This document shows positions 4,371 to 33,900 of a stretch of 33,925 bases of DNA, piece by piece (the stretch's first letter is position 1; the number at the start of each line of letters is the position of its first letter). Both the position numbers and the translations under genes were made by a program. Origin of the DNA: Verrucomicrobiota bacterium (GTDB lineage: Bacteria; Verrucomicrobiota; Verrucomicrobiia; Limisphaerales; JAHEOI01). The stretch is taken from positions 1-33,925 of the forward strand of contig JAHEOI010000014.1 of assembly GCA_018610125.1 (NCBI GenBank), in the 5' to 3' direction. The notes under the pieces are model-generated. The model saw only the letters and a list, made by a program, of their open reading frames with translations, was not told where the DNA came from and made no database searches.

Positions 4371-5432
4371 TTATTGACTCGCTGTTTTCTCGATAAGCGG
4401 CGAAAGCGCTTCATCAATCGCGTCTTCGGTCCGGCCGACCGATTGTTGAAAGAGGAACCATCGCTCGACATGCTCGACAGAAGCCTCGGGTGGTAGGTCC
4501 ACCAAAGGTCCGAGGGTTTCCACTTCAAGCATGTCACCATTCGTATAAAATTCGGCGTTACAGCCGAAATCGGGATATTCGGCGTCCGATCGTTCCGGAT
4601 ATCGCTTAATGAAGAGGTCGTCACGCCCTTTGGGGACATAGGCGGACCAGCCGAGACTGTTCCGCACTCCGAATTTTTCGGCGTCGTTGGCTTCGGGATC
4701 GCTTTCGAGCTGGATGTAGCGGTTGCCCCAGGTCCATCTCGGATCCCCCATTTCAGTATAGCCCCAGAGAGCGATCGCTCGAACCGGTAGCAGTTGATCG
4801 CTTTTCGGCTCCTGTGGGACGATGACCCGACCCGGTCCCTGCATGACGCTGAGCGCCCAAGGGGCAACCTCGATTTCCCAAGGGTTATGGTTAATGAGAC
4901 GGTGGAGGACTTCCACACGGTTCCGGTTTGGGGCGAGCGTGATCTCGATCTCTTTTTGAACGCGAGTCGAGGACTCGGTCGGTTGTGTCAGGGTCAACGT
5001 CTTGCCATCCCATTGATGCTTGACCGGGCTGTTGTCCGGGGCGTACGTGCGAGGTCTGACCTCGGGCGCATGCCAGAAGCGATGGCCGCCATAAATCCTC
5101 CAGGAGCTGCCGCCGGTCTTTCCCAATTGCTCGGGCCATTCCTTAAAGAGGTTTTCTTCACCATTGAAGGCGAGCCGAATGATTCGCGGACCCACATCCG
5201 TCGTGGCGATGAGCTCAATCTCTCCATTTGTTAATCGGATGCAGTTGGGCCATCCTTGATAGCTGACCTCCTCCTGTTTGACTGCTTCGGCATCGGCACC
5301 AAGGGTCAGCGAAAGGCATGTGATCCAACAAAGCCAGGCAATGGGCTTGGTGGAGCGATACAGCTTGCGAGGATTGACGGGGAGCGCGTTCACGTCGGAT
5401 AAGACGCGTGCCTGGATGGTTTGTGACTTCAT
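4371..5432 (-). CDS. Secreted DUF4380-like (galactose-mutarotase-fold) protein
   Basis: N-terminal hydrophobic segment; TTDVGPRIIRLAFNGEENLF, YGGHRFWHAPEVRPRTYAPDNSPV, VAPWALSVMQGPGRVIVP pattern as in DUF4380 proteins. Confidence 0.65.
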   Translation of the reverse strand: MKSQTIQARVLSDVNALPVNPRKLYRSTKPIAWLCWITCLSLTLGADAEAVKQEEVSYQGWPNCIRLTNGEIELIATTDVGPRIIRLAFNGEENLFKEWPEQLGKTGGSSWRIYGGHRFWHAPEVRPRTYAPDNSPVKHQWDGKTLTLTQPTESSTRVQKEIEITLAPNRNRVEVLHRLINHNPWEIEVAPWALSVMQGPGRVIVPQEPKSDQLLPVRAIALWGYTEMGDPRWTWGNRYIQLESDPEANDAEKFGVRNSLGWSAYVPKGRDDLFIKRYPERSDAEYPDFGCNAEFYTNGDMLEVETLGPLVDLPPEASVEHVERWFLFQQSVGRTEDAIDEALSPLIEKTASQ

Positions 5433-5708
5433 GAGGAGCAGTTTGTTTGGAATGGGAGAGGCAAGTCAAGATCAGCGCTGGAGATCGGGCGCCTTCCAAA
5501 ATGGATGAAGAGCCAGAGGGGGTGACCCGAAGGAAAGAGAAAGGGATCGTTGGCAGTTTCTTGGCGTTCCTGGTTAAAATGAGTTTGAACAGAGTGGATC
5601 TGTTGTTTTCCAACGTGAGGAGTGGAAAAGAGGGGGAGGAATATTACCCCTTGACAATGAACGGTTCGGTAGCGTCTGCTACGCAACCAGAATCTCAATC
5701 GGGAGACA

Positions 5709-6683
5709 GTGAGGATACGGTATTCGAACATGATCGAAATTAATAATCTTCGCAAAAGTTTCGGCCCCAAGGTGGCAGTGGATGGGGTGACGTTTAATGT
5801 TCAAAAAGGCGAGATCATGGGTTTTCTGGGACCGAACGGTGCCGGCAAATCCACGACGATGCGGATGCTTACCGGGTTCATTCCGCCGACTGACGGCAAG
5901 GCTTATGTCGGGGGTTATGACATTGACGGTGACCAGTCGATTGAGGCAAGGCGATTGATGGGATACCTGCCGGAAGCAGCGCCGCTTTATCCCGACATGA
6001 CGGTGCTGAATTTCCTCAATTTTGTTGCGGACATTCGTGATTTGCAAGGCGAGCAGAAACGTAAAGCCGTCGACCGTGTTATCGAGCTTTGCTTTCTCGA
6101 GGGGGTCCGGCATCAGTCGATCGATACGCTCTCAAAAGGTTACCGTCACCGGACTTGCTTTGCGCAATCGATCATCCACGATCCGCCGATATTGATTATG
6201 GACGAGCCGACGGACGGGCTTGATCCGAACCAGAAATTCGAGGTTCGGAGCATTATTCGCCGAATGGGTGAGAAAAAAGCCATTATCTTTTCGACTCACA
6301 TCTTGGAGGAGGTTGAGGCGGTTTGCTCTCGGGCAATGATTATCGATCGCGGCAAAATCGTGGCCAACGGGACGCCGGAAGAGCTCAAGGCGAAATCGGA
6401 GTACGCCGGGACCGTAACGCTGCGGCTGAGCGGCATCAGCGCTTCCAAAGCCTCGAAGCGTTTGGGCGACCTCGATGAGGTGCGCAAGACGACCACCCTT
6501 GAAGAGGGTGATTCCGCCGTATCGCTGCGGGTGTTTCCCAAAGAAGGAAAGAAGCGGGCTGAGCTGGCCCGGGCCCTCGTGAGCTGTGTGACCCAGGAAA
6601 ATTGGCAATTGGAAGACTTTCACACCGAAGAAGGACGCCTCGACGATGTCTTTCGGCAGTTGACTGAACCAGAGACCGCTTAA
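5709..6683 (+). CDS. ABC transporter ATP-binding protein, GldA-like
   Basis: Walker A GPNGAGKST, signature LSKGYRHRT, Walker B ILIMDEPTDGLDPNQ, H-loop STHILEE; an ATG at 5730 (MIEINNLRKSFG) is an equally plausible start. Confidence 0.95.
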   Translation: MRIRYSNMIEINNLRKSFGPKVAVDGVTFNVQKGEIMGFLGPNGAGKSTTMRMLTGFIPPTDGKAYVGGYDIDGDQSIEARRLMGYLPEAAPLYPDMTVLNFLNFVADIRDLQGEQKRKAVDRVIELCFLEGVRHQSIDTLSKGYRHRTCFAQSIIHDPPILIMDEPTDGLDPNQKFEVRSIIRRMGEKKAIIFSTHILEEVEAVCSRAMIIDRGKIVANGTPEELKAKSEYAGTVTLRLSGISASKASKRLGDLDEVRKTTTLEEGDSAVSLRVFPKEGKKRAELARALVSCVTQENWQLEDFHTEEGRLDDVFRQLTEPETA

Positions 6684-19199: not shown

Positions 19200-19284
19200 G
19201 GGGGCGATAGTCCTGTATGGGCGCCCGCGTTGGGCTCCCGAGGTCTGCCCGCTAGCTTGTTGAGGATGAGTCAAGGTTTAGAAT

Positions 19285-19413
19285 GCCTTCGCAGAAGCGA
19301 AGGCGCGGACCGCAGCGGAGTGCGGTCCCTACCGCAACAGCGGTGGTAGGGTCGGCAGTCCCCTGCTGACCTTGATCGCCTTCATGCTTCGCATGGTCCG
19401 AGGCAACGCCTCG
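19285..19413. repeat. Cluster of six consecutive short hairpins (REP/BIME-like)
   Basis: gccttcgc-agaa-gcgaaggc (19285-19304); ggaccgca-gcggag-tgcggtcc (19307-19328); ccctacc...ggtaggg (19327-19351); ggtcggcag-tccc-ctgctgacc (19350-19371, one wobble); catgc-ttc-gcatg (19383-19395); cgaggc-aac-gcctcg (19399-19413). Confidence 0.8.
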
Positions 19414-20367
19414 CTAGGGTTGCGCCCGCCTGACACTGATTTGATAGAAGCGAGGTGTGCTCTTGTTGTCGATTGGGGCAATGTAGGTGTTTTCCGGAGG
19501 GGTGGCCTCAATATTGTCTTCGAGTGTTTCGAAGTCACCGCTGGGTGACTTGGAGACCTTAATGCTGTAAATGCGGTCTGGCGAGCTCTGCCAACGGAGG
19601 CGAATGCCTTCAGGGGCCAGAGCCACTTGAAGCGAGAAAACGGAGTCGCCTGCTTGCGGGTCTGTGCCGGCGATGAATTCCTCTTCGTTGGTCAATCTGT
19701 CGCCGTCCGGATTATCTTGGGCGGATTGGGAGAGATCGCCGAAATGCTCCTCTTCCCATTCATCCGGCAGGCCATCGCCGTCGGTGTCGGTGCTCTCTCC
19801 TTCAAACTGGACAGTCCCGAAGCTGATCCCCCCTTCGATGTCATCGAGCACGCGTCCTTCTGTCGTAACAAAGTTGGAGAAGCTCTCCTCCGTTCGGGCG
19901 AGTCCAAGGCTCAGATCGGGCGTTCCGGCCTCCGGCTTCGTGAAGGTGACAGTCCCGAGACGGATTTCATTTCCGCCCAGGCCGGCTTGCGGGCTCTCGG
20001 TATCAAGCCTGCCGCCGATCAAGAGGACCCGACTCGTTTCCGCCAGAATACGCGCCCCCGAGTACGGCTTGTTGTTTTTGCCGTCTCCGAAGTACCACTG
20101 CGCGCCATTCGTTTCGGCATCGATCGGCTCAACTTGGTCGGGATCGTAGCCGATACGGATACCGAAACTGTAAAGGGTCACATCAGGAGCATTTCCGAAA
20201 AGCTCCACGACGACCTGGTCGTCCTTCACGGTGCCTTCGGCAGACACATCCACTTCGGCGGCACCGACTGCTCCTGTTCCCGCGAAAGCGAGGGAGGCGA
20301 TGACGAGTGTGTTAATAGGATAGCTTAGCCTGGTCATGACTCGGTATTCGCGTTTGGGTTGTTTCAA
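19414..20367 (-). CDS. Secreted protein with cohesin-like N-terminal domain and TSP3-like C-terminal module
   Basis: Signal-like N-terminus; VVVELFGNAPDVTLYSFGIRIGYDPDQVEPID...EIRLGTVTFTKP (cohesin-like pattern); DTDGDGLPDEWEEEHFGD..NPDGDRLTNEEEFIAGTDP; C-terminal RIYSIKVSKSPSGDFETL...FYQISV. Confidence 0.65.
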   Translation of the reverse strand: MKQPKREYRVMTRLSYPINTLVIASLAFAGTGAVGAAEVDVSAEGTVKDDQVVVELFGNAPDVTLYSFGIRIGYDPDQVEPIDAETNGAQWYFGDGKNNKPYSGARILAETSRVLLIGGRLDTESPQAGLGGNEIRLGTVTFTKPEAGTPDLSLGLARTEESFSNFVTTEGRVLDDIEGGISFGTVQFEGESTDTDGDGLPDEWEEEHFGDLSQSAQDNPDGDRLTNEEEFIAGTDPQAGDSVFSLQVALAPEGIRLRWQSSPDRIYSIKVSKSPSGDFETLEDNIEATPPENTYIAPIDNKSTPRFYQISVRRAQP

Positions 20368-20397
20368 TAATAGGTGGTGCTTTGAGTGAGGCCTGGC

Positions 20398-22908
20398 CTA
20401 CTCACCGGCATTGACACCGCCGAATTGTGAGGCGAAGATAGCCAGGTCGTCGCCGTCCACATCCCCGTCTCCATCCAGGTCCGCGGAAGCGCCCGACGAT
20501 CCCTCCGATAGCTCAAGAGTGAGGTTTTCGTCAAACTGGTCTCGGTAGATCCGACCGAAACCCGTCGTGGTCCGAGCGCGTGCGTGTAGATCGAATTGAT
20601 AAGCGCAAGTATGCCACGGATCTAGATTCCCCGAGTCCGTGGAATTGAATACGGTCTCGGTGACGCCGTTCCAGGTCGGCCGTGAGCCGTCATTTTCACC
20701 TTCATACTGTTGCCGAACAATCCGGCCGCCGTTCTTATTACTCCCATATTCGACACCGATGTTGAAGCTATGCAGGTAGCCGTTCGGATGGCTGGCGGTG
20801 ATCTTGAAAGCGATATTTTCGGTCTCACTTGAAAGGTCGATAATGCCGCACTCTGGGACGGGTGAGCTGTCGTGCCGAACTTCGACAATTTTCGCCGTTA
20901 CGGGGGCATTGTCGATGACGAGCGTGATGCTGTCCTGCTCGTTGCTTGGCAATGAGACTTCATTCTTGTCTTTGTCGAAGGCCTTGATCTTGACCTGATA
21001 GATACCATTGGCAAAACGCCGGGTGTTCCAGATCATCTTCAAGTCGGGGTGGGCCCAATATCCTTCCTCGGTGCGTTCGTAGAGGCCATCCTCGTCCGGT
21101 CCGACATTGACGCGGCGCGCGTCGACACGCCCGGACGAGGAAACGAAGTAGCGCACCTTGGTGAGCGGATCATCCAACGGCTCGAACGCCGAGCTGTCCG
21201 GCGGCGTCCGACCACTCCACGGAGCGACAAGGATTTGATAGAATTCGACGTTGCCGTCGAACTCGCCAAACAGGCCGTTTAGCCATATCTTCCCGCCGAA
21301 TGGGGCATCATTGTAATCGGGAATCGAAAGCTCGCCGGCGGCCGCGTCGGAGACGTTGGCGAGACCCAAGCCCGTACCGTTTTGGGTGATTTGAGACACG
21401 GGAATATTGCCGACAGACGTAAACACGAAGCCGCTGGCGACGGGGCTCTCTCGGACTCCTTCTGTGCCGCTTGGGCCGCCGGTGTAGCCCATGTCGTTGC
21501 GGGAGCCGTCAGGATCGTCAAAGATGGATCTCGGATCGCCGGCGTCGATGCAAGGCGAGCCTTCGGTCAGGAGAAACCGGTCGGGAGCGGATTCATCGAA
21601 AAGCGGATCGGCCGAGATACTTCCGACACCGGCGGAAGCGGTGCTTCCGTCCTGGGCGTCATAGTCGCGAAAGGTGCTGTTCCAAACGTTGTTGTAGCTC
21701 AGCTTTGGTTTCGCATTGCTCAGTGCGGCGATGCCGACATTATTATTGACGACGATATTATTCTTGATGGTCGCGTCGGCTTGGCTGTAGCACCAGATGC
21801 CTTCGTTCTCGTTCTGAGCGACGGTGTTATTGATGACGCGGGTGCCGGCCGACTCTTTCCAAGCGATATAGATGCCAACCTCGTTACGGCAGACCCGGTT
21901 GTTGGCGATCAACGGTGTCGAATGCAGATTGACGATACCGTAGTCAATGATTTCGTTGTCCGTGTTCCCATTGTCGCAGACGAAATTGTTTTGAACGATG
22001 GCACTGGATCCGCCGCCGATTGCGATGCCATTCTTCGTGCCGGTGATCTTGTTTCCGGTAATCATGGGATCACCGCCGGTGATGTCGATTCCCACGATCG
22101 TCGGTTGCCCTTCTCCGGACCAAGTGAAGTGAAAGCCCTCCAATTTCGTGTCTGTAGCTTCGTCGGCTGTGACGATGGCGTCGCCGTTGCCTTCGACCGT
22201 CGTCTTTGCCTTGCCGGCTCCGACCACATCGACGCCGCTTCGCATGGAAAAGCTTTCTTGGAAGGTGCCTTCGGCGACTCGAACTGTTTGACCGGAATCC
22301 GCCGCGTCGATTGCGGCTTGGATCGACTCGCCCGATTCGACGAAAAGGTCCGCTGAATTCCCGGTTACTTCGATTTTGACACCTTGGCGGCGATGGGTAT
22401 CCAGCGGCGGCGAAGTCCCGTTGGTCTGAGAGACAGGGCAGGAAGTGTCCTCGGCGGGCACGGCGTAGAACACGCTGGCCGTGGGACCGGCCTCCTGGTT
22501 GATTTCAAATGTCACGGTGCTGAATTCCTCGATCGGGACGTTGCCAAAGTTGAAGGTCACCGGGACGCCTTCGTTCGAGTTGGCCGATAGCTCCACCCGT
22601 TCCGAGGGGCTTGCAATCACCTCGCCGTCGTAAGTCTCCTTCCGAGCGGTCAGGGAGAGGGTGTAATCGCCCGCGGTATTCGCCGCAAATTCCAGGGTCA
22701 CTGTGCCGAGACTGTGGCCCGGATATTCGGCTATGTAAAAGCCTCGGTCGATCAGATCGCCCGGCGAGCCCTCGCAGGAAATGAGTGTTTCACCCCGTAA
22801 GTCATCGGGGACCAAGCCGGTCAGACATGGAATGACTAAAAAGAGCCCGAGCTTGCCTAAAAGAGTCTGACGCCTGGGTAACAATCCTTTCGTTGGTAAT
22901 CCTTGCAT
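20398..22908 (-). CDS. Secreted right-handed parallel beta-helix (NosD/PbH1-type) protein with terminal dockerin-like motif
   Basis: SIQAAIDAADSGQTVRVAEGTFQES, repeated N-N-x-V/I beta-helix turns (NNTVAQNENEGIWCYSQADATIKNNIVVNNNVGI), SPCIDAGDP, C-terminal DLDGDGDVDGDDLAIFASQFGG. Confidence 0.85.
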   Translation of the reverse strand: MQGLPTKGLLPRRQTLLGKLGLFLVIPCLTGLVPDDLRGETLISCEGSPGDLIDRGFYIAEYPGHSLGTVTLEFAANTAGDYTLSLTARKETYDGEVIASPSERVELSANSNEGVPVTFNFGNVPIEEFSTVTFEINQEAGPTASVFYAVPAEDTSCPVSQTNGTSPPLDTHRRQGVKIEVTGNSADLFVESGESIQAAIDAADSGQTVRVAEGTFQESFSMRSGVDVVGAGKAKTTVEGNGDAIVTADEATDTKLEGFHFTWSGEGQPTIVGIDITGGDPMITGNKITGTKNGIAIGGGSSAIVQNNFVCDNGNTDNEIIDYGIVNLHSTPLIANNRVCRNEVGIYIAWKESAGTRVINNTVAQNENEGIWCYSQADATIKNNIVVNNNVGIAALSNAKPKLSYNNVWNSTFRDYDAQDGSTASAGVGSISADPLFDESAPDRFLLTEGSPCIDAGDPRSIFDDPDGSRNDMGYTGGPSGTEGVRESPVASGFVFTSVGNIPVSQITQNGTGLGLANVSDAAAGELSIPDYNDAPFGGKIWLNGLFGEFDGNVEFYQILVAPWSGRTPPDSSAFEPLDDPLTKVRYFVSSSGRVDARRVNVGPDEDGLYERTEEGYWAHPDLKMIWNTRRFANGIYQVKIKAFDKDKNEVSLPSNEQDSITLVIDNAPVTAKIVEVRHDSSPVPECGIIDLSSETENIAFKITASHPNGYLHSFNIGVEYGSNKNGGRIVRQQYEGENDGSRPTWNGVTETVFNSTDSGNLDPWHTCAYQFDLHARARTTTGFGRIYRDQFDENLTLELSEGSSGASADLDGDGDVDGDDLAIFASQFGGVNAGE

Positions 22909-23507: not shown

Positions 23508-25043
23508 ATGAACGAGCAGAGCAGTGCAAAAGGACGATGGCTTTGGGCGGTGATCACAATCCTTTTCGCAGGAAGCCCGTTGGTTATGAACGGGGCGGAA
23601 GCGGAAGGGAAGCGTCCGAATATCATCTTTGTTTATGCCGATGACCATGCGTATCAAGCGATTCAATCGTATGGGGGATGGCTCTCCGAGTATGCGCCCA
23701 CGCCGAATATCGACCGGCTCGCGAGCGAAGGGATGTTGTTCCGAGAATGCTACGTCAGCAATTCCATTTGCGGGCCGATGCGCTCGGTTGTTCAGACCGG
23801 TAAGTACAGCCATCTGAATGGATTTTATCGGAACGGTCAGCGCTTCGATACGAGCCAACAGACTTTTCCGAAGCTGCTGCAGGAGGCCGGCTACCAAACG
23901 GCGATTGTCGGCAAGTGGCATTTGAAGGCCGAGCCGGTCGGTTACGATTATTACCATGTGCTTTATGGGCAGGGCCCTTATTATAATCCGGCAATGCGCA
24001 CGCCGGATGGGCGTGTCGAGCACACCGGTTACACGACCGACGTGATTACGGATGAGGCCTTGAAGTGGCTCAAGTCCAAGCGTGACCAAGACGAACCGTT
24101 CATGCTGATGTATCAGCACAAAGCGCCTCATCGGAATTGGCAGCCCGGGCCCGAACAGCTCTCGCTTTATGACGATGTGACATTGCCGGAGCCGGCGACC
24201 CTGTTTGACGATTATGCCGGCCGCGCCGGCCCGGTGAAAAACCAGAAGATGATGATCGCCAAGCATATGAACAAAGGCGATCTGAAGCTCCGGGTTCCGG
24301 GCGATCTCAATGAGACCCAGCGTTACCCTTGGAACGCGGCGTACCGCCCGAAGAATGAGGCGTTTCGTCAACAGAACCTCGAGGGAAAGGAGCTGGTCCG
24401 CTGGAAATACCAGCGCTATTTGAAGGATTACCTACGCTGTATTGCCTCGATCGATGCCAATTTGGGACGCTTGCTCGGCTACCTGAAAAAGTCCGGTTTG
24501 GCTGAAAACACCGTTGTCGTTTACAGCTCCGATCAAGGGTTTTATCTGGGCGAGCATGGCTGGTTCGATAAACGCTGGATTTATGAAGAATCGCTACGGA
24601 CTCCGTTGGTGGTCCGTTGGCCCGGCGTGACCGAGCCCGGCAGCGAAAACTCGCAGATCGTCTCACCGGTGGACTTTGCTCCGACCTTTTTGCAAATGGC
24701 GGGCGCGGAAGTCCCGAGCGATATGCAAGGGCGCAGCTTGGTTCCCTTATTGCAGGGGAAGAGGCCTAATGATTGGCGCGAGAGCTTCTATTATCACTAT
24801 TATGAGTATCCGGGGGCTCACAGTGTCCGGCGTCACTACGGGGTCGTTACCGACCGTTATAAGCTGGTCCACTTCTATAGGGAAGGCGAATGGGAGTTGC
24901 TCGATCTGAAGGCGAATCCGAAGGAGACAAAAAATTATTACGGCGAGGCCAAATACCAAGAGGTCCAGGAGCGACTGAAAACGGAGCTGAAACGGCTTCA
25001 AAAAGACTTAAAAGTGCCGGCGGATCAAACCAAGCTTTATTGA
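23508..25043 (+). CDS. Sulfatase (Cys-type, formylglycine-dependent)
   Basis: [17 protein letters not shown], active-site [10 protein letters not shown] (CxPxR at 23769-23783), [42 protein letters not shown]. Confidence 0.95.
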
Positions 25044-25111
25044 GCAGCGAGGCGTCGGTTTGTATCCGCGAAGGCGTTTGCAAGAGAAAGTCTCAACGAG
25101 AAAGCAAGCTG

Positions 25112-26506
25112 ATGAGAAACACGACGCGATTAAGAGGCCTGGGAAATGCTGTAATGGTGGCGGCGGCTGTCTTGGCGGGAGGTTTGAGCCTGCCCGGCCG
25201 GGCTGCGGCCGCCTCCCAGCCCAACATCATCTATGTTATGGCCGATGATTTGGGCTATGGGGATCTCGGCTGCTATGGTCAGGAGGAAATCAAGACGCCC
25301 AACATCGATCAGCTCGCCTCGGAAGGGATGCGATTTACCGACCATTATTCCGGTCAGACAGTTTGCCGTCCTTCTCGACTGAGCTTACGAACCGGTTACC
25401 ACACCGGGCACACCCCAATCGGCTCGAATGCCGATTATGACCTCGCCCCGAATGACCGCATCACCGCCAAGCTGCTGGGTGAGGCCGGCTACGCCGTTGG
25501 TGGAGTCGGTAAGTGGGCGCTGGGCGAAGCCGATACGACCGGGGCGCCACACAAGCAGGGCTTCGACCTTTGGTACGGTTACTTGAATCAGGTTGCGGCC
25601 CACAATTATTGGCCGGAGTTTCTTTGGCGAAATGGCCAAAAGATCGCACTGGAGAACGAAGTCGACTATGCCGATAGCGGTTACGCCAAGGGATTAAGCG
25701 GCGTTGCCACAAAAAAGGTCGATTACAGTCACGATCTCATGACAAGGGAGGCCCTTCGGTTTATCCGTAAGCACCAAAACGGCCCGTTCTTTTTCCAGGC
25801 GCATTACACCATCCCCCATGCCAATAACCAAGCGGGACGCCATGGAATGGAAGTCCCTGAATACGGGGAGTACAAAGATAAGGAATGGCCTGAGACCGAG
25901 AAGGGCTTTGCGGCGATGGTTACCCGATTGGACCGAGATGTCGGGCGTATCGTTGATCTCCTCCAGGAGCTTGGCATCGCCAAGGAGACGCTGGTCATCT
26001 TTACCTCTGACAATGGCCCTCATCACGAGGGAGGACACGATCATGCGTTTTTTAATTCGAATGGCCCATTACGCGGCTATAAGCGTGACCTTTACGAAGG
26101 GGGAATTCGGGTCCCGATGATTGCATGGTGGCCGGGTAAGATTGAAGCCGGGAGTGTGTCCGATCATGTCTCGGCCTTCTGGGATGTCATGCCCACAGCC
26201 TGTGAGGTTGCCGGTCTTGAGCCTCCGGGTGACATTGACGGGATTTCGTTTCTCCCTGAGCTCCTTGGCAAGCCCCAACGCAAGCATCACCACCTTTACT
26301 GGAAATTCAAAGGCAAGATCGCTTTGCGCCAGGGGAAATGGAAGCTCGTGCGCAATGGCAACGAAGAAGCTTACGAGCTTTACAATTTAAAAAAGGATCC
26401 CGGCGAACGCAAAAATCTGGCGAGTCACCGGCCCGAGCTTCTGCGGCAAATGAAAGCCACTGCCCGCAGCATCCGGAAAGAGGGCTCGGCCGATCTCGGT
26501 TTTTAA
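25112..26506 (+). CDS. Sulfatase / arylsulfatase (Cys-type)
   Basis: QPNIIYVMADDLGYGDLGCYGQEEIKTPNIDQLASEGMRFTDHYSGQTVCRPSRLSLRTG (CxPxR at 25364-25378), GVGKWALG, FTSDNGPHHEGGHDHAFFNSNGPLRGYKRDLYEGGIRVPMIAWWPG. ATG 25112 (signal peptide follows) preferred over 24890, which overlaps the upstream gene. Confidence 0.95.
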   Translation: MRNTTRLRGLGNAVMVAAAVLAGGLSLPGRAAAASQPNIIYVMADDLGYGDLGCYGQEEIKTPNIDQLASEGMRFTDHYSGQTVCRPSRLSLRTGYHTGHTPIGSNADYDLAPNDRITAKLLGEAGYAVGGVGKWALGEADTTGAPHKQGFDLWYGYLNQVAAHNYWPEFLWRNGQKIALENEVDYADSGYAKGLSGVATKKVDYSHDLMTREALRFIRKHQNGPFFFQAHYTIPHANNQAGRHGMEVPEYGEYKDKEWPETEKGFAAMVTRLDRDVGRIVDLLQELGIAKETLVIFTSDNGPHHEGGHDHAFFNSNGPLRGYKRDLYEGGIRVPMIAWWPGKIEAGSVSDHVSAFWDVMPTACEVAGLEPPGDIDGISFLPELLGKPQRKHHHLYWKFKGKIALRQGKWKLVRNGNEEAYELYNLKKDPGERKNLASHRPELLRQMKATARSIRKEGSADLGF

Positions 26507-27946: not shown

Positions 27947-30900
27947 TCATGGACTTGAAGCCGCCAACCGGTAAAAATAATCCTGATCCTTGCTGTCAAT
28001 GGCATCGCGCACCTTGATCCGACCCGTTGTAACCTGGGCTTCGATATGCTTTCGCTCTTTCCAAGCTGAGGTTTCCAGTGATGAGGTTCTCAAAAGGGTG
28101 TAGGAACGCCCGGCAACAGCCGTAAAGGTAATCGTGATTGTATCCCCTTGACGACGGATGCTGCTGAGCTCAAGGCGGCTTCGCTGATCCCAGGGGTGGG
28201 TACCGCCGGCATACTCTTGTCGATTCGTTTGGCCGTCGTCATCCGCATCCAGGGCGCCATCGGTTGTATCCAAGGGGTCAAGCCCATGGCTTACCTCCCA
28301 GCGGTTTGAAATGCCATCGTTGTCACGGTCCGCATTAATCTCTTCAGCAGACGCGTAGCCTGGGGTCGGGGGCGCTGCTGCTGTCCAATGCATGGGATCG
28401 TTTGGGTACAACCATCCATCCAAGCGCTTCAACGAGGCGCCGTCGCCGTCGGCATCGGCAGGCCAGGGAAGATCATCCGAGTAATTGATTGCATCCATCG
28501 AGACGTAGACCGGCTGAGTTGGCTGACCTCCCTCGAGCTCTCGAGGAGAAGCCCGGCGCGAAAGGACAACCCTTTCTCCGGCATTGTCGAGCCGGCCGTT
28601 GTAAGGTCCCACGATGACGCTATCGCCCGAGGGATCATATCGATCTCGGAAGGCTGCCAAGGCTTGCGATCCTTCCGAGGGCTCGAAGGCGACGACGACA
28701 AGGGCGCCGAAGGAAGGGAGTGTCACCTTGGGCAAATCAAAGCGAATCCCCTCTTCAACTCGCCATTTGGCGTCGCCGAGCGACACGCTCTGTTGCTGTC
28801 GATTTTGGAGCTCAATGAACTCAAACTGTGAGGCATTCGCTTGAGAGCCTGTTTCCGGTGGATGGTACATAATCTCGCTGATGACGAGCGGACTGATCAA
28901 CGGGTAGGCATTGGGGCGGCCTGTTCCAAGACGAAAGGCCTCCAAAGTGATCGGTCGCTGGATGCCGAATGTCGGCTGGCGCATTCGGGCGAGCTGCTGA
29001 CCATCGCTTGTGGCATGTCGTCCCAAAGACGTGTTAAGCGTCGTGGGGACCAATGGGAAATGCGTCCTGTGGCCTGTGAGGTCACCCGTTTGATCGACCG
29101 CAGAAAGATAGACTGACTGATCCTCGATGCCGTTTAGATCGAATGCCGAAATCGAGCCCGCTCCGCCGCCCAGTTGCTGCTCGTAAATGACGTGGAACCC
29201 ATTGCCAGGAATGACCGTGTCGGCGGGAATTCGATATTTTGTAAAAATGCCGGCTGTATCGCTAAGGTGCCAGCCGCCGATGCGCACCGTGCTATCGGTC
29301 GGATTATGCAGCTCGATTGCGTCCTCAAGCGGCGCTTCGGTATTACTGAGGACCTCATTGATACGGATAGGCAGGGGGAGATAATTGCTGGCTTCGGGGC
29401 TTCCAGTCCTTCGAAATTGAGCGATCCGCTCTTTTCCGTCCGGCAACCGCCCTTGAGAGACGCCATCGGCTTGCTCGTCGAAGCGAATAGTGTCGATGGC
29501 TGCCTGATCCGAACTGGAAAGCCCGATCGATTCCCCGTCCCCCGAGAGCTTGAAGTTGAGGTGGGTCGGTCCCGTGGTCGGGCGATCGTCAGCCTCGAAC
29601 TTTAAGAAGGCATCGGCGCCGGCGCCGATAAAGGAGTGGGCCGGCAATTGGTATTGCCCCGGCTCGTTCGGATCATCGGTCAGAAAAAATCCGCCGATAT
29701 CGACCGGATGGCTGTTTGGGTTGTAGAGCTCGAGCCAGTCCTCGCCCGAATCAGGGCGGGCCATCCACTCGTTCACTTTCAAGGAGGTCGCGGGGCTAAG
29801 CTGAGCAGGTTGATTGGGCTCGCGGGGTGTTCGGCGGGTTAGTTGCCATTGAGCCGGCGATTCGGGAATGCGACCGATGGAGCGATTTCGCGGCAGAGGG
29901 CCGAACGAAATTGAGTCGATCAGCTTCTTGCTTTCGGAAGCCGAATCGAGGAGGTACAGGGAGTCGCCATCACGATCGAGATTGATATTGGCGCCCGAGG
30001 ATGGGCCCTCCTGATTAAGCTCGATCACAAGGTATTCGCCTGGAGCGATGGCGGTCCCTTCCGGGAACCTCCATTGACGGTCACCGGATAGGCGGTCGCT
30101 CAGGGAAAACTGAGACAAGTCGACCGATGTGGCTCCCGGATTGTACAATTCGACCCAATCTGATTTAGAGGGGGACCCCGCGAGCCCGGTTGAGGTGTTT
30201 GCAGAGACCTCATTCAAGACGACGATCGGATCACCGGTACGCGGGTCTGGATTGTCGGCCCCCGGAGTCGGTTTCGGCAGCTTGCGATAAAGCCCCTTAC
30301 CGGTTTCCTTGGGCCCTTGAGAGACGTCCGTAGTCTGAGGGCCATACACGACTCGGTCGATCTCGCTTCTTCTCTTCTGAAACAACGCTAACATGCCCGA
30401 GTCTGGAGACAGCCTAAAGTCGAGATGGTTTGCGTTCCCTTGAGGTTGGCTATCTGCAATGAACACTCGATATCCATTGGCGGAGATGAAGGTAAGTGGA
30501 GCAATGTTGTGGCGCAGCGGCGTCGTATTCGGGGCGTCGGTCAACGCGAGCTTCCCGAGAGCCACCGGCAGCGCTTCCGGATTATGGATTTCGACGAAAT
30601 CCTCTTCGAAGCCGGATTGGCTTGTATCCGTCAGCCATTCATTAATCACCAGCGCTATAGGATCGCCGACAGGTTGAGCGACGTTCGGTTTGCCGAAGGT
30701 CGGTTGGGTCAGTCCCCAGCCGGTTTGCGGGATGCGTCCGATTGAAAGATCAGTGATTTGGGGCCCAAATTTGACGGAATCCAACTCCCGGCCTCCATTG
30801 CCGGGGCGATCGAGAAGATGCAAGGCTTCTCCGTCTCCGTCCAAGGCAAACCCGAGGTGGAGGCCGGGACCCTCATTGTCATCGTCGGCTTGCAGGACCA

Positions 30901-33900
30901 AATAAGTCCTGCCGGGTAGGGTGACGCCTTCCGGAAAAACGAACTTGTGCGGTTCCGTGAGATCGTCCGTCAAACGGTAGCCGGTCAGGTTAATGGGGGA
31001 ATCACTTTGATTGTAAAGCTCGACGAGATCAGAAAGCTCGCCGTTGTGGCGGATGCTGTCATTACGGGCCAGAAGCTCGCTGATTTGCAGCGCAGGCGAA
31101 GCCGGATCAACCTGCCAACGGTCCGAGGGGGTCGCCTGACCCTTGTCCTGCCATACCCCGGCCGCGTCCCTGCCGATAACGTGCACTTGATGCCAGCCTG
31201 CTCCCAAATCGCTCAAAACGATCGGCTCGCTAATTGGGATCGCTCGACTCAATGGATTTTGATCGAGCCGGTAGCGATAATGGGTTAGTCCGGGGCCGCT
31301 AACCCGCAGGATTGTCTCTGTTTGCGGGGTTGGAGAGCCGGGCTCTCCAGTGATGCGGGGACCGTGCGGGACTTGGGCGCCGATATCGCTGCCGTTGGGA
31401 CCGGCATTGATGGCCGGTGAGCCCGGGCGTAGATGAAAATCATCCGGTGGATTGACAAAGCGTGGCGCACCTTCGGCATTATGGCTTCCAAATTCGTGAT
31501 AATCCGCGGGAAGAAGGGAATAATCAATCCGAACTTCGGTTTTGCCCCATGTCGGATGACTCCGGTAGGCGTCCTCCAAGACAGAGTCATTCTTGGCGAA
31601 GATTGTCCCCAAAATGGCCGCCCCTCTACCGGGGGTGCCGGCATTGTTGCGGTGAAAATCGATGGCAGCGATGGCTGATCCGAAGATCGTATTGTGTTCC
31701 AGAGTGGCGAAGGAATCGCCGCGAATCAATAGAGCATAGTCGTTATCGAAAAAGAAATTCCGCACCAGATGCGGATGCGCCTGCATGTCTGCGACGATAC
31801 TGGAAACACGGTTTTCGGCGGCGGAGTCGCTCCTTCCAAAATGACCAAACCGGTTAGCCTGGATGAAGGCTTTCGCCGATTCGAGGTGGATTGCTGGGAC
31901 ACGCCCTCCTGAGAACCGATTGCGACGAATCTGAATCACGGTATCGGCTTCGCGTGGTGCGTAATGGACCAACGCACCCTCATCCGAACCGGTGATTTTG
32001 CCGAATTCATTCCCCACGATCTCAAGGAAAGGGTCGGACGCAAGGAGGCTGTCGCTGAAGATCATGGCATAGGGCTGCGAGGAAAAAATGCAGTCACGGA
32101 TCTCCAATGAAGACCGTGACGCCTCGATAGCTCGTCCGGCAATGTCAGCGAAACTACTTCGACGTATCTCGACGATGGCTTTGTCGGCAAATACTGCCTC
32201 CCGGTCCGCGGCGGTTGACCGGATATCCACAAAGGCAAGCCGGTTCTTGGTCTGGGCATCCACCAATCGGATTCCATTCCAGGTGGCATCGTTTTCCGGC
32301 GGGCTCGAAAGGCGGATTCGGTCAACGTCGCTCCCCACGGCAACCAGACGCCCTTGCACCTCGATGCCGGTGCCGGATTGAAAATAGACAGTGGTTCCAG
32401 GCTCAATCGTCAACGTAGTCTCGGACGGTACCGTAACACGGTCTTGAACCAGATATGGGCCTTGCTCGGGAGACCAACGAGTGTCCTGGGTTAACTCACC
32501 TCTAACCGGCGTTGTCGAGGCCGGCTCATACCAGACCTCGACGGACTTTCGCTCAAGTCGACTCCCACTGGGGTCAAGCGATTCGATGAGGACTCGATTG
32601 ATTCCCGGATACAATGCCACATTTTCTTTTTTCCACTCGGCTTTAAACGCCGTCCATGTAGCGGACTCGCCTTCAACACGAACGGCTCCGGTTTTCAAGG
32701 CGTTGGCGCGACCCCGCAGGGTGATGGAGGGTTGAGTTGTATGTAAAAAACCGTTTTTCGTCGGTAAATCGGGCGACACCTCGATGGTTTGCGGAATCAA
32801 CTGACGGATTGCCTGGCGTCGAGCGGCTGCCCAATCCTGCATGCGTTGGACCACTTCCGGCGGTACGTAGTCAGCCAACATATCCTCGATCAATGGATTG
32901 AATACGTTTGACGAAAACGTGGTTTGGCTGAGATCGATAAGTTGTCGATAATAGAGCCGTGAGAAGGGAGGCCACCTCAGGAGGCGATCGAACGTCGGCA
33001 TGTTGATGGCCCCGAAGATGGTGCCCTTGCCAAGGATGACGGCTTCCGTCGAGCCACGGTGGTCGCCTTCGCCCAGTATCGTATCAAGATCGTGAGAGAT
33101 CAGTCGAAAACGGCGGTCGGCCTCGCCCCGATAAAGATAATAGTCGTCGCCGAAACCGGTCGAAAGGTTGCTTTCGCGATTATTGAACAGGGCCATCAAG
33201 GCGAAATAGCGCATCCATTGCCGGACTGCAGCCACACGCTTGGCTTCTTGAGTGTAATCGGCTTTGGGAGCGTTGTTGAGAGTCTGTGTCAGCTCCAGCA
33301 AGTCACTCCAATCGGCTTCGCTTCGGTTGGTCTCTTTTGAATAACTGTTGGTATAGGCCTGATAATCCGGTCCGCGATAACCAAGATCGGCGGGCTCGTT
33401 ATCCCGAAATCCTTTATAGAGATTGCCCCCGTTATCCTCGGGAAAATGACGGTCGACAAACTCGCTATTCAAGGCCTCCTTGGCGACGTAGGATCCATAA
33501 GTCCGGGTGCGCGGGCCGGAGAGTGTGGCGTCATCATTATTGACGCGAAGTTGCACAGCCGTCGCGAAGCCGGATGGCACACCGGCATGAAGGCTTAGGA
33601 CGGCCCCGATATGCTGAGCATAAGAGTACTGTGCGTTCAGATTGAGCTCGGTCTGTTCTTTCCAGGGAACGTCGCTTCGGAAATTGACTTGATAGTTATT
33701 CGGCTGGCGATTCCGGGTGCCTTGCCCTCGATTGCGGATCCCCACGAGGTATCGAATTTGGGTACCGGTGCCGTCGACACTGATAAATGTGCCGTTCATT
33801 TCGGCGTTGCTCTTTGCCGCGCCTGTCAGCGGGGCCGAGCCGATAGCGTCAAGCTCCGCGCGCTCGGCGGCGGTCATGATGATCTTATAAAGCGGCTGCG

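Follow-up and report, generated by a model that had tools for sequence, protein, structure and literature searches.

Specific cohesin–dockerin binding outside a cellulosome has been verified for an archaeal pair from Archaeoglobus fulgidus (as cited in PMC9012536, refs 166–168). For the naturally truncated (group 2) dockerins of Ruminococcus flavefaciens a single binding mode has been proposed (PMC2930009), a mode in which one cohesin holds two short dockerins is also reported, and a 2025 structure of a truncated dockerin exists (PDB 9gvb; the last two as cited in PMC12817449). In cellulosome-like systems, monovalent adaptors, each with a single dockerin and a single cohesin, connect cohesin types (PMC11557425).

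We analysed a stretch of 33,925 nucleotides (hereafter the window) from a Verrucomicrobiota bacterium, in which a gene for an exported beta-helix protein with a dockerin-like tail is followed by a gene for a protein with a cohesin-like domain. No cellulosome is known from this bacterial group. Like the A. fulgidus pair, with binding verified for that pair only, the two candidates put a cohesin and a dockerin outside a cellulosome and lack a multi-cohesin scaffoldin. The A. fulgidus dockerin is a recognisable dockerin domain, whereas the putative dockerin of the window is one F-hand, its cohesin-like partner escapes profile detection, and the host belongs to the Verrucomicrobiota. The window dockerin is shortened, as in R. 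flavefaciens group 2; unlike the R. flavefaciens cellulosome, which has 222 dockerins in strain FD-1, this tail type occurs once per genome and is tied to one neighbour. Cohesin modules of secreted Clostridium perfringens glycoside hydrolases (PDB 2jh2, 2vo8 and 2w1n), the nearest folds of a natural-fusion homologue in genome G252, also belong to secreted proteins and lie outside cellulosomes, but the window pair has no detected glycoside hydrolase domain and no sequence-level relation to them. The G252 fusion resembles the monovalent adaptors in joining cohesin and dockerin in a single chain, whereas the window pair is two proteins. By analogy, the pair would work like the known non-cellulosomal and truncated-dockerin systems. 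What is new is the proposed one-to-one combination, within an operon-like unit, of a half-dockerin and a private, highly diverged partner of the cohesin fold. No published account of the pair was found in the literature searched, from which a 2009 review on non-cellulosomal modules and the paper of 2025 on truncated dockerins were absent.

The gene pair and its surroundings

The source assembly comprises 3.74 Mb in 388 contigs and is 72.6% complete, with the pair on contig 14. Both open reading frames described by the earlier note were confirmed on the reverse strand. The upstream gene (P0002; 22908–20398) encodes the exported beta-helix protein of 836 aa, as supported by the reading frame, Pfam and orthologues in eight further genomes (41–48% identity). 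The downstream gene (P0001; 20367–19414) encodes the partner protein, of 317 aa when read from the listed TTG, which leaves a gap of 30 nt after the P0002 stop codon. The starts of the aligned homologues point to an ATG at position 20337, which suggests that this is the likelier start of P0001, giving 307 aa and a gap of 60 nt. Both proteins begin with a signal-peptide-like stretch, as read by eye.

In the beta-helix protein, the signal peptide is followed by an N-terminal beta-rich domain (residues ~40–185), a right-handed beta-helix (residues ~190–460), further C-terminal domains and the single F-hand tail. The beta-helix call is solid (PF13229, NosD-like, E = 1.5 × 10−12). Reading frame, Pfam and homologues divide the partner protein into a signal peptide, a predicted cohesin-fold domain (residues 36–187; 19807–20262, reverse strand) and a second half of TSP3-type repeats (PF18884, E = 1.8 × 10−7) and a C-terminal module (residues 193–317; 19417–19791, reverse strand). 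Its first half had no Pfam match. A Pfam search, which the earlier note had proposed, recognised the beta-helix and called no cohesin or dockerin in either window protein, both falling below their cut-offs.

Several other features of the window were observed. Two tandem genes (23508–26506, forward strand), sulfatase-like as judged by eye, are divergent from the pair and are not conserved beside it elsewhere. A 1976-aa protein (27947–33877, reverse strand) combines a CotH kinase, six lamin-tail domains, a beta-helix and a TSP3 repeat. Straight after P0001, and reaching its stop codon, lies a dispersed multi-hairpin repeat (19262–19418), in which five or six small hairpins stand side by side, with a fold z-score of −4.75; it matched no Rfam family, and the same genome holds 45 or more complete or partial copies at 85–97% identity.

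Dockerin-like tail and cohesin-like domain

The dockerin profile and the tail alignment place a single dockerin-type F-hand, DLDGDGDVDGDDLAIFASQFGG, at residues 810–831 of the beta-helix protein (20416–20481, reverse strand), with Asp at all of positions 1, 3, 5, 9 and 12 of its Ca-loop. In a genome scan this tail scored 16.3 bits against Pfam Dockerin_1 (PF00404), covering about half of the profile, and the best orthologue reached 22.2 bits, against a curated cut-off of 22.9 bits. Curated dockerins have a second F-hand; no second tandem repeat was present in any of the nine orthologues. The single repeat is nevertheless well conserved. Asp or Asn occupies loop positions 1, 3, 5, 9 and 12, followed by a helix, in all nine tails, ten columns are invariant, and the one tail that begins with Ile departs at the −1 position only. 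A profile built from the nine tails matched the solved dockerin 2y3n_B (E = 4 × 10−9), its loop and helix aligning to both repeats of that structure. The orthologue set, the invariant columns and the match to 2y3n_B led us to reject a chance motif as the origin of the tail. The earlier note had read a dockerin-type tail here while cautioning that one repeat was visible, and the reading and the caution both held. On its sequence features, the tail is best named a half-dockerin, with one F-hand. A cysteine stands on each side of the F-hand in six of the nine tails (none in that of the window), and in those six a disulfide could possibly act as a staple that steadies the lone F-hand.

Sequence alone failed to prove that the N-terminal domain of the partner protein is a cohesin. 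The window protein had no match to PF00963, and one of ten homologous N-terminal domains touched that profile (E = 0.028). When the profile was compared with PF00963-type cohesins from the same clade, the alignment was weak (20% probability) and spanned 26 columns, with the strand motif 'FGIRIGYDPDQV' in register. Structure prediction was more informative. An AlphaFold2 model of the domain, built with ten homologues, was all-beta (pLDDT 81, pTM 0.79), and a Foldseek search of the PDB with this model returned cohesins at ranks 1–6, the best being 5lxv (E = 3.8 × 10−5, TM 0.63). At E ≤ 10−3, cohesins made up 15 of the 19 matches, and related beta-sandwich folds (AgI/II domains) also matched at lower rank. 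The model of the G252 fusion homologue matched cohesins in 21 of 21 cases at the same threshold. TM-scores to cohesins were moderate (0.4–0.6). The models provide good evidence that the domain has the cohesin fold, a nine-strand jelly roll. The cohesin-like N-terminal half proposed by the earlier note is upheld at the level of predicted fold, and the outcome it had named as contrary, placement in a non-cohesin family, did not emerge from the structural search.

Co-occurrence of the two genes across the order

We compared 320 genomes of the order. The profile of the N-terminal domain matched in ten of them, a weak partial match in G067 (20 bits) being set aside. Samples of the class and phylum beyond the order yielded a single weak partial match, and the three loci recovered by scanning GTDB contigs all belong to the order already covered. 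Full-length orthologues of the beta-helix protein, which scored 1319 bits or more where the next match scored 188 bits, occurred in nine of the 320 genomes. A stand-alone cohesin-like gene is present in the same nine, each time directly downstream on the same strand. The nine genomes span seven families. Around the nine pairs we found no conserved neighbours besides the pair itself, save one weak match between two loci; since other neighbours are not shared, a generally conserved gene order does not explain the adjacency.

Searched with a profile built from the tail alone, each of the nine genomes gave one strong match (59–72 bits). Among the 320 genomes, further matches of at least 30 bits were confined to two VWA proteins. 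In one (G252:C204), the dockerin-like tail is followed by the same cohesin-like domain within the chain, a natural fusion. In the other (G089:C177), the gene directly downstream carries this domain and is split by a transposase ORF. Two independent profiles, of the tail and of the N-terminal domain, therefore converge on the same extra loci. Paralogues that share only the C-terminal domains of the beta-helix protein had neither the tail nor a cohesin-like neighbour. Tree concordance between the two proteins (r = 0.79, permutation P = 5 × 10−5) is expected from shared descent and was not used as evidence of binding. We take the nine-of-nine linkage, the exclusivity of the tail, the fusion and the tail-less paralogues without a partner as good, though indirect, evidence that tail and cohesin-like domain function together. 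The adjacency, which holds in both directions, the single tail per genome and the fusion also lend independent support to the earlier note's suggestion of a cognate pair outside cellulosomes.

Two side observations came from these comparisons. In the disrupted locus (L068; G089:C177, 4701–8459), the transposase-like ORF lies at 5083–6297 and the second half of the cohesin-like gene runs into a beta-helix region. Among the paralogues, those of about 600 aa (loci L104–L109) include several beside a conserved small secreted protein of about 135 aa, possibly another fixed pair.

The C-terminal module of the partner protein is widespread. It was matched in 53 of 58 relatives, on exported proteins and with up to 39 matches per genome, and all 26 copies examined end within 45 aa of the end of their protein. 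All 11 cohesin-like proteins have it, and the beta-helix orthologues all lack it. Because of this distribution, we infer a role for the module in export or in retention at the surface. A protein from genome G103 (L110, contig C655, 1690–2943) has two N-terminal domains of the beta-helix protein's type fused directly to the module, with no cohesin or dockerin.

A proposed two-protein complex and its alternatives

We consider it probable that the pair is an operon-like unit encoding a dedicated cohesin/half-dockerin-like complex outside the cytoplasm, with one type of cargo per receptor. The cargo would be the exported beta-helix protein with its putative Ca-binding half-dockerin, and the receptor the exported partner protein with its cohesin-fold domain. 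Docking of the F-hand onto that domain would proceed as in cohesin–dockerin pairs, presumably depending on Ca and with 1:1 stoichiometry. As the partner protein carries the C-terminal module, which would handle export or retention at the surface, and the beta-helix protein does not, docking may tether the latter to the envelope through its partner. The beta-helix could then contact an extracellular glycan or other ligand.

The proteins might instead be co-expressed and act on the same target, with the F-hand serving as a Ca-stabilised C-terminal cap or sorting tag and the cohesin-fold domain binding, for example, a glycan. F-hand loops often occur in isolation, the tail has no second repeat, and the lower-ranked AgI/II matches would suit such a role. 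An AlphaFold2 model of the G252 dockerin–cohesin fusion (pTM 0.67), in which the dockerin helices formed with a pLDDT of about 60, is compatible with docking as well as with its absence. However, a mere cap would not track its partner across architectures, and elsewhere among the 320 genomes the tail occurs only on two unrelated VWA proteins, fused to or adjoining the same domain, which leaves this reading unlikely. Less plausible still, with about equal weight, are two readings that keep the interaction and alter its partners or stoichiometry. The tail would be one client of several if the cohesin-like domain were a scaffold receptor for ordinary two-repeat dockerins; most pair genomes hold a few Dockerin_1 proteins over the cut-off, including two in the window's genome by the count that the earlier note had suggested. 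Yet each receptor has a single cohesin-like domain, genomes G252, G251 and G199 keep the pair without any dockerin over the cut-off, and some ordinary dockerins sit in one chain with their own PF00963 cohesin. A 2:1 mode, in which two beta-helix proteins, each by its single F-hand, share one cohesin-like domain, would be in keeping with the loss of half of a dockerin's usual bulk and with the tripartite mode reported for R. flavefaciens group 2 dockerins (as cited in PMC12817449); we rate it as very improbable.

A cellulosome combines a multi-cohesin scaffoldin with many dockerin enzymes. We found one cohesin-like domain per partner and one matching tail per domain in each genome, and each pair genome has 0–4 PF00963 cohesins, along with a few matches to dockerin. 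A multi-subunit scaffold was rejected as the main account on these grounds, and the earlier note's placement of the beta-helix protein on a scaffold was not borne out; because there is one domain per partner and one tail per domain, the arrangement looks like a private 1:1 pair rather than a scaffold with many clients.

Within the dedicated-complex reading, a more specific version is tentative and somewhat short of an even chance. The single F-hand would bind a private, highly diverged cohesin family and act as a non-covalent, clip-on surface anchor in place of the C-terminal module that other exported proteins of the order have in their own chain, with reuse on VWA proteins and a possible disulfide staple in six of the nine species.

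If the dedicated complex is real, it would be the smallest cohesin–dockerin docking (about 25 residues) and a one-to-one clip for a surface protein, and would hint at a general route by which these bacteria attach exported proteins. A short orthogonal docking tag of this kind would also be a useful laboratory tool. The nine natural orthologous pairs and one natural fusion offer a test of the minimal dockerin and of how specificity evolves. Because both partners fall under the Pfam cut-offs, similar pairs elsewhere may go unnoticed.

At one further locus (L071; G000:C2), a beta-helix protein has a complete dockerin of two repeats (39.6 bits). The same reading frame also covers a membrane stretch, a Cys in a lipobox-like setting and a weak match to cohesin (13.9 bits), so that the locus may hold another such pairing, separate from the first.
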